A DNA stretch of 64,000 nt. It comes from Cryobacterium sp. PH31-AA6. Lineage in GTDB: Bacteria; Actinomycetota; Actinomycetes; Actinomycetales; Microbacteriaceae. Position numbers and translations under genes: made by a program. The DNA lies in the NCBI RefSeq assembly GCF_030063195.1, contig NZ_JASISS010000006.1, positions 1-64,000 of the forward strand, read 5' to 3'. The notes under the pieces were generated by a model, which was not told the DNA's origin, did no database searches, and saw only the letters and a list, made by a program, of their open reading frames with translations. Below, in pieces: positions 35-1,817 of this stretch (the first letter of the stretch is position 1; every line of letters starts with the position of its first letter).

Positions 35-1009
35 TTAGAAGTCCCAGTCGGCGTCTTCCGTGTTCACGGCCTTGCCGATGACATAGGAGGAACCGGACCC
101 GGAGAAGAAGTCGTGGTTCTCGTCCGCGTTCGGGGAGAGCGCCGACAGGATCGCCGGGTTCACGTCGGTGACGGCCTTGGGGAACATCGCCTCGTAGCCG
201 AGGTTCATCAGCGCCTTGTTGGCGTTGTAGTGCAGGAACTTCTTGACGTCCTCGGTGAGGCCGACCTCGTCGTAGAGGTCCTGGGTGTACTGCACCTCGT
301 TCTCGTACAGCTCGTAGACGAGGTTGAAGGTGTAGTCCTTCATCTCGTCGCGGCGTTCCTGGGTGGCCGCCTCGAGCCCCTTCTGGTACTTGTAGCCGAT
401 GTAGTAGCCGTGCACGGCTTCATCGCGGATGATCAGGCGGATGAGGTCGGCCGTGTTGGTGAGCTTGGCGCGGCTTGACCAGTACATCGGCAGGTAGAAG
501 CCCGAGTAGAAGAGGAACGACTCGAGCAGGGTCGACGCGACCTTGCGCTTGAGCGGGTCGTCGCCCTGGTAGTAGTCCATGACGATGGAGGCCTTCTTCT
601 GAAGGTTCACGTTCTCGGTCGACCAGCGGAACGCCTCGTCGATCTCCTTCGTGGAGCACAGCGTTGAGAAGATCGAGGAGTAGCTCTTCGCGTGCACGGA
701 CTCCATGAACGCGATGTTCGTGTAGACGGCCTCTTCGTGCGGGGTGATCGCATCCGGAATCAGCGAGACGGCGCCCACGGTGCCCTGGATCGTGTCGAGC
801 AGGGTCAGCCCGGTGAACACGCGCATGGTGAGCTGCTGCTCGACCGGGGTGAGCGTGTTCCAGGACTGCACGTCGTTGGAGAGCGGGATCTTCTCCGGCA
901 GCCAGAAGTTGTTGACGAGCCGGTTCCACACCTCGACGTCTTTTTCGTCTTCGATCTTGTTCCAGTTGATCGCGTCAACGTGGGAGACGAGCTTGAGCTT
1001 GTCAATCAT
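35..1009 (-). CDS. nrdF: class Ib ribonucleotide reductase beta subunit NrdF
   Basis: Radical-generating small subunit of the aerobic class Ib ribonucleotide reductase. It carries the dimetal centre and tyrosyl radical that NrdE uses to reduce ribonucleoside diphosphates in the cytoplasm. The 324 residues match the usual family length. Visible metal ligands are D72 (LLDTIQG) and E103 and H106 (FMESVH); the radical tyrosine is Y110, and later ligands lie in LLESFLFY and RDEAVHGYY. The ATG at 1009 follows GGAAAG, and that ribosome-binding site is inside the last codons of the upstream endonuclease gene (8-nt overlap). It is the last gene of the nrd run on this strand. Confidence 0.97.
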
Positions 1010-1817
1010 GAGTTTTCTTTCCTGTCGGTAGTGCGTTCAAGTTCCGTGCCGCGTCTTCAACGCAGTACTTACAGTCAGCTTTTTCAACGTTCAGATTGGA
1101 GTGATAGCGGACGTGGGCATTTCGCGCGTTCCCCGGTCGAGGAATCCCTTCTTGTGCTGCAGACCGCTTCGCGAGCGACTCCGCGCTGGCCTTCCTGCCG
1201 AAGTTCGGATTCAATGACCCTCGACGCTGCTCCGATAGTACGGCCTTGGCTTCGGCAGACATCCTGTGGCCAAAGCTCGGGTGCTCCTCCCCAAATCTAC
1301 CGAAGTTGGGATTTTCTCGACCCGAGTTCCTGCCCTTCCGCATTGCCGACCAGAGCGCCTTCTGCTCGTCGGAGTGATTCTGGCCGAAGATAGGATTGTC
1401 GGCTCCGAAGCGGGGTGGAACCGATCGACCGGTAGACCGCAGCCGTGCCGCTTCCCGCTGAACCGCAGACCACTCGATCCGCGTCGGCCCCAATCCTCCG
1501 CCCGAGAGGTTCAAGAGGCGGTCGCCCCGTGCCCGTAGTCTCCCAATCCAGTCGATTTCTGCCGCTCCCAGTTGCTCCAGCGTTGAGGTGATGACCTGAA
1601 GCGATTCGACATAGACCAAGTCTCTGGGGGCCTTACGCAACCAGTCGTAGAACGGATTGCGAACCCCCAATTCAGCGTTTTTGAAGTGCTGGCTCGTTCG
1701 CCGACGGATGCTGGTGGTCGTGAGCCCGACGTATCGGTACTCGGGGGACGATTCAAGGCGAACGCCATAAATGACGCCGATGATGTTTCCCGGAACCGAC
1801 GACTTCGCCACGCCCAC
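1002..1817 (-). CDS. free-standing GIY-YIG homing endonuclease with NUMOD3 repeats, between nrdE and nrdF
   Basis: Predicted site-specific DNA endonuclease of the GIY-YIG family. The N-terminus holds the catalytic module: VIYGVR and YRYVGLT match GIY and YIG, followed by an Arg-rich helix ([10 protein letters not shown]) and a Glu ([12 protein letters not shown]). The centre has three or four NUMOD3-type DNA-binding repeats ([45 protein letters not shown]). The C-terminus (RYHSNLN then CKYC) looks like the short zinc-binding tail of phage HNH/GIY enzymes. GTG at 1817 lies 5 nt after GGAGGG; GTG at 1823 is an alternative. It starts 43 nt after nrdE and overlaps the nrdF start by 8 nt. Two 60-base blocks counted at 1021-1140 are 55% GC, below the neighbours, which suggests transfer. 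No intron is needed: nrdE and nrdF are both intact. Confidence 0.85.

Follow-up and report, generated by a model that had tools for sequence, protein, structure and literature searches.

A putative free-standing GIY-YIG homing endonuclease gene at the 3' end of nrdE in Cryobacterium and its relatives in Actinomycetota

The presence of a gene with a GIY-YIG nuclease domain between nrdE and nrdF, the genes for the two subunits of a class Ib ribonucleotide reductase (RNR), raises the question of what such a gene is and how it came to reside in this operon. The window considered here, meaning the whole stretch of DNA that was analysed, comprises 64,000 nucleotides (positions 1 to 64,000 of contig NZ_JASISS010000006.1) of Cryobacterium sp. 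PH31-AA6 and harbours on its minus strand the chromosomal class Ib nrdHIEF operon of a 3.68-Mb genome, arranged as nrdH, nrdI, nrdE, the gene in question and nrdF (Table 1). Our reading, to which we give a probability of about 0.85, is that this is a free-standing homing endonuclease gene (HEG) addressed to the nrdE 3' end. Upstream of the operon, at 5272-6285, an AbiEi-type antitoxin-domain protein is encoded (Pfam AbiEi_4, E 3.7e-6; PADLOC AbiEi, E 1.8e-11).

Table 1. Features of the nrd operon and of the inserted gene, in window coordinates
Feature	Position	Strand	Basis
nrdF, class Ib small subunit, intact	35..1009	-	ORF, Pfam
Free-standing GIY-YIG/NUMOD3 homing endonuclease gene (HEG; our reading), 271 aa, GTG start	1002..1817	-	ORF, Pfam, sister-gene alignment, fold
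Variable HEG tail codons, probably read-through of the host nrdF leader, including nrdF RBS-like AGGAAAG (1017-1023)	1002..1052	-	Shown for G017/G032, inferred for the window
C-terminal H-x3-H-x-N-x7-C-x2-C motif, outside the Pfam matches	1062..1115	-	50-sequence alignment
NUMOD3 repeats, by eye some three units of NPxFG type	1152..1406	-	Pfam, profile match
GIY-YIG catalytic domain, residues about 14-104	1506..1778	-	Alignment, predicted fold
nrdE, class Ib large subunit, intact	1861..4017	-	ORF, Pfam
nrdE end encoding EGCVSCAL and stop; conserved sequence beside HEG copies	1861..1887	-	Loci comparison
nrdE 3' part, unusually diverged from nearest relatives, candidate co-conversion tract	1864..2577	-	Relative comparison
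nrdI	3999..4442	-	Pfam
nrdH, glutaredoxin family	4518..4751	-	Pfam

The gene and its predicted product

As claimed in the original prediction, the gene combines GIY-YIG and NUMOD3 domains and is positioned between nrdE and nrdF genes that are both intact. Its ORF spans 1002-1823 (a 273-aa frame), within which the GTG at 1817 represents the start homologous to those of sister genes. The Pfam NUMOD3 match (E 2.3e-10, residues 185-219 of the 273-aa frame) lies above the cut-off and the GIY-YIG match (E 2e-4, 22.1 bits) just below the 22.6-bit cut-off, and no HNH match was obtained with Pfam at E 1. A PHROG homing endonuclease profile matches with an E value of 9.8e-12, and TIGR01453, which represents group I intron endonucleases, matches 50 of 50 members at E 0.01, the window HEG scoring 40.2 bits, under the curated cut-off of 56.05. 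No Rfam match at gathering level was present in window positions 1-4800, and no intron was found. The AlphaFold model of the protein (mean pLDDT 83.5, pTM 0.45) has its elements in the order E-E-H-H-E-H, and in a Foldseek comparison with the PDB it was best matched by the catalytic domain of I-TevI (E 0.007, target TM 0.78, no match reaching 0.001), which the predicted fold of the first approximately 100 residues resembles. The three-strand/three-helix fold, as predicted, and the conserved Y, R, E and N residues that characterise the GIY-YIG superfamily are found in the HEG: Y17, Y29, G31, R40, H44, E87 and N103 are invariant in all 50 aligned sequences, the window's included, and the loss of GIY-YIG catalytic residues that had been raised with the original prediction finds no echo in this alignment. 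By their spacing, R40 and E87 would be the counterparts of the catalytic R27 and E75 of I-TevI, and by this analogy the invariant residues may have a catalytic role. By profile, the NUMOD3 repeats match 1i3j, the DNA-binding domain of I-TevI (E 0.0045), and are probably the DNA-binding part of the HEG, and the C-terminal motif, in which H239, N241 and C249 are invariant and H235 and C252 at least 90% conserved across 50 HEG sequences, may constitute a zinc site. The lower GC content noted for the gene was confirmed as a slight difference (59.1%, as compared to 60.3% for nrdF, 62.2% for nrdE and 67.6% for the whole window), yet it is no mark of foreignness, HEG GC being below that of nrdE in 52 of 76 copies with a mean difference of 0.4 points.

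Address of the gene, empty junctions and the nrdF overlap

A scan of contigs of named genomes with the HEG alignment alone yielded 129 pattern stretches and 82 relatives, of which 80 were kept. Every one of these 80 loci is placed directly behind nrdE on the same strand, in records titled Actinomycetota throughout, and the intact copies (n = 76) comprise 73 of bacterial origin and three from viral contigs. While nrdF is the next gene in 53 of the 76, it is not in the other 23, which by title belong to Mycobacteriaceae and Nocardiaceae, and the conserved address is thus the nrdE 3' end, encoding a C-x-x-C tail, rather than the uninterrupted nrdE-nrdF junction that had been proposed as the target. 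The conserved nrdE end (1861-1887) is likely to belong to the homing site and may be what the protein recognises. Within the genus, 4 of 57 genomes match the HEG at 1e-5, the carriers being G000, G017 and G032; the match in G003 is a different, distant GIY-YIG gene elsewhere in the genome (L004 1525-1869; 35% over residues 14-139, in a 531-aa frame). The HEG was detected in 5 of 398 family genomes, source genome included, and in 12 of 396 order genomes, where one copy (G467) has an in-frame TAA, and all genus, family and order matches except that of G003 sit between nrdE and nrdF. More distant GIY-YIG genes (in G003, in phage GMA2 and at L181 and L182) are located at other places and not behind nrdE. 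A search of plasmids gave no match, and a search of viral contigs with the single window HEG protein gave no relative. At L158 nrdE had seemed to be truncated by HEG insertion; the long gap is an assembly gap.

The empty sites expected in relatives were observed in abundance, as the nrdE-nrdF junction is empty in 52 of the 55 genus genomes with an nrdF match, with spacers of 30-206 bp. G033 and G040, with no nrdF match at threshold, were left out of this count, and G044, which has a partial nrdF, is among the 52 and was left out of the tail ranking and the genus tree. The junction is empty in G003 also, where the NrdF protein is 100% identical. No match to the HEG interior was found in the 52 empty spacers (blastn, short words, E 0.05); when the three inserts were compared with these spacers, those of G017 and G032 matched by their ends only (the first approximately 20 nt, and nt 821-866 of 869), and the window's own insert gave no match at all (blastn, short words). 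Native spacer is retained on both sides of the HEG in G017 and G032, where the 41-45 nt immediately preceding nrdF correspond to the leader found in empty relatives, and as judged from this alignment the final HEG codons of these two genomes belong to the native leader and include its own ribosome-binding site (RBS) for nrdF. G018, which is empty, shares the last 27 nt of nrdE with the occupied G032, and those bases alone therefore cannot decide immunity. Many empty Cryobacterium spacers (L019, L022-L024, L026-L031 and others) contain palindromic repeats like GGTCGAGCTTGTCGAGACC or variants, which differ between relatives and are possibly REP-like elements.

In the window the HEG extends across the nrdF start (1007-1009) to its own stop (1002-1004), and its last codons contain the nrdF RBS, exactly as had been described beforehand. 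The argument built on this arrangement, that the element is hard to delete as it carries the nrdF start signals, is not supported by the comparison with G017 and G032, where these bases are the host's own leader, and by extension from these two genomes the overlap in the window is probably also a read-through of the host nrdF leader. An overlap was scored in 36 of 53 copies by a script taking the nrdF start nearest the alignment, and inspection by eye adds six Agromyces loci with an overlap of 4 nt. Continued translation of nrdF may thus be favoured, but the overlap is not a defining property of the element.

Traces of homing, selection and descent

The clearest trace of homing was observed in a pair of phages. 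Arthrobacter phage Talia1610 carries a HEG relative between nrdE and nrdF and its sister Mimi is without it, as are Racecar and Atuin at this position. Between Talia1610 and Mimi, nrdE differs at 9 of the first 1976 bases as compared to 32 of the final 163, which adjoin the insert, with 18 of the 21 changed codons in this tail silent; the contrast has a nominal p of 1.6e-29 and the best single breakpoint was unmatched in 2000 permutations, the breakpoints having been picked after the data were seen. In nrdF, 24 differences fall within the first 264 bases and 6 within the 341 that follow; a second diverged block begins at 606 and is variable between Mimi and Racecar as well. Read from the two sequences, this is clearly the pattern of an insertion with flank replacement, i.e. 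of co-conversion. In Microbacterium phage A3Wally (L186 5173-5888) nrdE and nrdF are separated by three small genes of unknown function. The viral contigs L179 and L180, of lower GC (42% and 46%, respectively), carry nrdE-HEG-nrdF, and their HEGs are placed among those of Microbacteriaceae on long branches, with alternatives not firmly rejected. A reading frame of L180 resembles, by eye, a tail-fibre protein; L178, also from viral contigs, is almost the same sequence as L141 of Microbacterium schleiferi and could be of bacterial origin.

Among bacteria, Gordonia tangerina and Gordonia sp. OPL2 differ at 20 of 765 HEG positions, as compared to 205 of 2750 in the nrdE body and the rest of nrdF (p 1.7e-7), and the ratio of HEG dS to nrdE dS is 0.24 for this pair. 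Usually the HEG diverges more than nrdE at silent sites, the median being 4.3-fold (over same-genus pairs having nrdE dS under 0.6, 214 of 220; 12 saturated pairs were left out of this median). The comparison establishes, at the level of sequence divergence, a recent transfer of the HEG in the Gordonia pair; co-conversion is weakly indicated, as the end of nrdE and the beginning of nrdF, taken alone (11 of 250 different), point in this direction but are not significantly unlike the flanks (p 0.07). For Mycolicibacterium L125 and L154 the HEG/nrdE dS ratio is 0.45, with no clear block in windows along the alignment. In the Cryobacterium window, nrdE from about base 1441 is 9.5-12.2% different from G003, G041, G013 and G030, as compared to 4.0-6.0% before this point and 4.2-5.3% in nrdF; against the nearest relative the tail differs by 12.0% and the remainder by 4.2%, an excess that ties for first of 54 with the partner G013. 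This excess is smaller in G017 and almost absent in G032, and the HEG-less G021 gives tail/body ratios of 2.2-2.6 against the same four genomes for which the window gives 1.6-3.0. The last approximately 700 bp of nrdE thus look foreign in a manner suggestive of co-conversion, in a region where HEG-less genomes vary too. A donor of this tail was not found among 199 family genomes, the best match outside the genus being 88% and within the genus G030, 9.6% different. Window positions 2308-2397 (nrdE CDS 1621-1710) are strongly diverged, with 18-21 of 90 bases different from the four relatives; the same stretch differs at 18 of 90 between the HEG-less G030 and G003 or G041, and at 2-5 among G003, G041 and G013.

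The median dN/dS of the HEG is 0.105 over 202 pairs, which are not independent, and that of the nrdE body is 0.128, values which indicate that the HEG is under purifying selection. Seven of the 80 copies are disrupted, through frame changes or deletion, two of them in metagenome assemblies, where errors are possible; these seven were excluded from the trees and dS work, and L102, L147 and L179 were excluded from the nrdE tree owing to short nrdE. Patchy presence combined with strong constraint and some decay is the pattern expected from repeated homing. The comparison with the host phylogeny, which had been put forward as a test, came out divided: at the level of families the HEG tree agrees with host taxonomy, with 10 label changes where the least possible is 9, and the traces of homing are local. 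In AU tests Mycobacteriaceae and Micrococcaceae as single HEG clades were not rejected (p 0.42 and 0.44), nor were the mycobacterial HEG groupings on the nrdE trees (p 0.069 for protein, 0.17 for DNA). Deep horizontal transfer, for which the two mycobacterial HEG groups and the position of Sinomonas beside Mycobacteriales were candidates, was set aside as these tests and trees gave no rejection; very low HEG-side p values alone do not show tree conflict. An AU p value of 0.045 stands against the viral copies forming one clade, and Microbacteriaceae HEGs as one clade without the viral rows were not rejected (p 0.12; branches are long), so the trees only suggest an exchange of the HEG between phage and host. 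On the genus nrd tree, three changes are required for three carriers, gain and loss being indistinguishable. As homing needs homologous flanks, mostly local transfer is expected, and the deep part of the history could be one of vertical descent with loss.

Explanation, rivals and known systems

The window gene has most of what characterises a free-standing HEG: a nuclease domain, neither intron nor intein, intact neighbours, a fixed address, empty alleles and co-conversion, of which there is a clear case in one phage pair, a weak indication beside the Gordonia HEGs and a suggestive one in the window. The protein would be translated from the nrd mRNA, bind the C-x-x-C-coding end of an unoccupied nrdE via its NUMOD3 repeats and cut near the nrdE 3' end by means of the GIY-YIG domain, and repair of the break from an occupied copy would bring the HEG with flanking nrdE stretches, and nrdF where adjacent, into the new genome. 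Lying in the spacer behind nrdE, the HEG leaves both reductase genes whole, and reading through the native leader would create the overlap with nrdF. Cleavage, recognition sequence, expression, immunity of occupied sites and the transfer route are parts of this scheme that we infer, and phages with nrd operons are a plausible route. It is possible, and in our estimate unlikely, that a single actinobacteria-wide HEG lineage in chromosomes and RNR-carrying phages is shuttled by phages, whose nrdE, having a similar end, a chromosomal copy may cut on entry and so cause interference.

That the gene is an ancient, vertically inherited member of the nrd operon, e.g. a reductase regulator or accessory, lost in most lineages, would agree with a HEG tree that follows host families, with selection as strong as on nrdE, with the constant position beside nrdE in 80 loci and with a genus tree on which three changes account for three carriers by either gain or loss; we nevertheless consider it distinctly improbable, given that 52 of 55 genus junctions are empty without a match to the HEG interior, that the HEG/nrdE dS ratio of the Gordonia pair is 0.24 as compared to a median of 4.3, that the phage pair displays an insertion with replaced flanks and that 7 of 80 copies are broken. 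A nuclease useful to the host, retained for the protection gained by cleaving nrdE in infecting phages, with homing incidental, appears very improbable: the patchy distribution (3 of 57 genus genomes), a PADLOC assignment of the protein to a homing endonuclease model only (23 bits, 30 residues) and the carriage of such genes by phages themselves all argue against this, even though class Ib nrdE is present in actinophages, Mimi and G005 agree at 22 of the last 27 nt of nrdE and the dN/dS values indicate selection on the HEG. An inactive relic of a past insertion, now a mere overlapping frame upstream of nrdF, can hardly be entertained, since the window frame is open, the invariant residues are present and the median dN/dS is 0.105 over the 202 non-independent pairs; decay is expected of homing genes, and the 7 broken relatives of 80 and the in-frame TAA of G467, one of 12 order copies, are what speaks for it.

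A homing endonuclease gene located behind nrdE finds partial parallels in known systems. MobE of T4 and relatives is likewise free-standing between two reductase subunit genes and is expressed from upstream promoters (PMC2988022, PMC3653736). The parallel drawn with it in the original prediction holds for this arrangement and not for the nuclease, as MobE is of the HNH type (PMC2988022), belongs to the phage class Ia nrdA/nrdB pair and has nrdB as listed target, whereas the HEG is GIY-YIG, has nrdE as constant neighbour and resides mostly in bacterial chromosomes. The Seg endonucleases of T4 are GIY-YIG, free-standing and capable of intronless homing with flank co-conversion (PMC2988022), and in these respects resemble the HEG, but are phage-borne at other genes. 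Phage homing genes are frequent near ribonucleotide reductase genes, which account for 33% of T5orf172 and 18% of IPA-HNH neighbourhoods (PMC10448857), these being other nuclease subfamilies in phage genomes; a term search of the accessible text of that source found no Arthrobacter or actinobacterial case named. Free-standing GIY-YIG frames occur in bacteria (PMC1564403). I-TevI is related to the HEG in the predicted fold of its catalytic domain and by the profile match of its DNA-binding domain, but is intron-encoded. A counterpart in location is Talia1610 gene 111, at the same place between nrdE and nrdF with 32% identity over 91% to the HEG, although this phage copy is on a very long branch.

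The HEG family is widespread at the nrdE 3' end, and the accessible portions of the open-access literature on homing endonucleases and RNR genes, which cover MobE, Seg, intron and intein cases and the frequency of homing genes near phage reductase genes (PMC3653736, PMC2988022, PMC1564403, PMC3984707, PMC10448857), yielded no description of an nrdE-linked actinobacterial chromosomal family; in literature on the Arthrobacter phages nothing relevant was found among the matches listed. In these accessible portions, the free-standing homing endonucleases worked out so far belong to phages (PMC3653736, PMC2988022, PMC10448857). The family described here is mostly chromosomal, with one very conserved site and natural empty and filled pairs in bacteria and phages, and with it one can test by what means intronless homing genes are maintained in cells without regular mating, whether phages serve as their vehicle and how the cost of inserting into an essential operon is avoided, the Talia1610/Mimi pair being a ready-made cross. 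In Gordonia phage GMA2 (L010 4819-5759) a related GIY-YIG stretch covers two hypothetical genes in the neighbourhood of those for thymidylate synthase and dCMP deaminase, and is perhaps a homing gene at another site of nucleotide metabolism.
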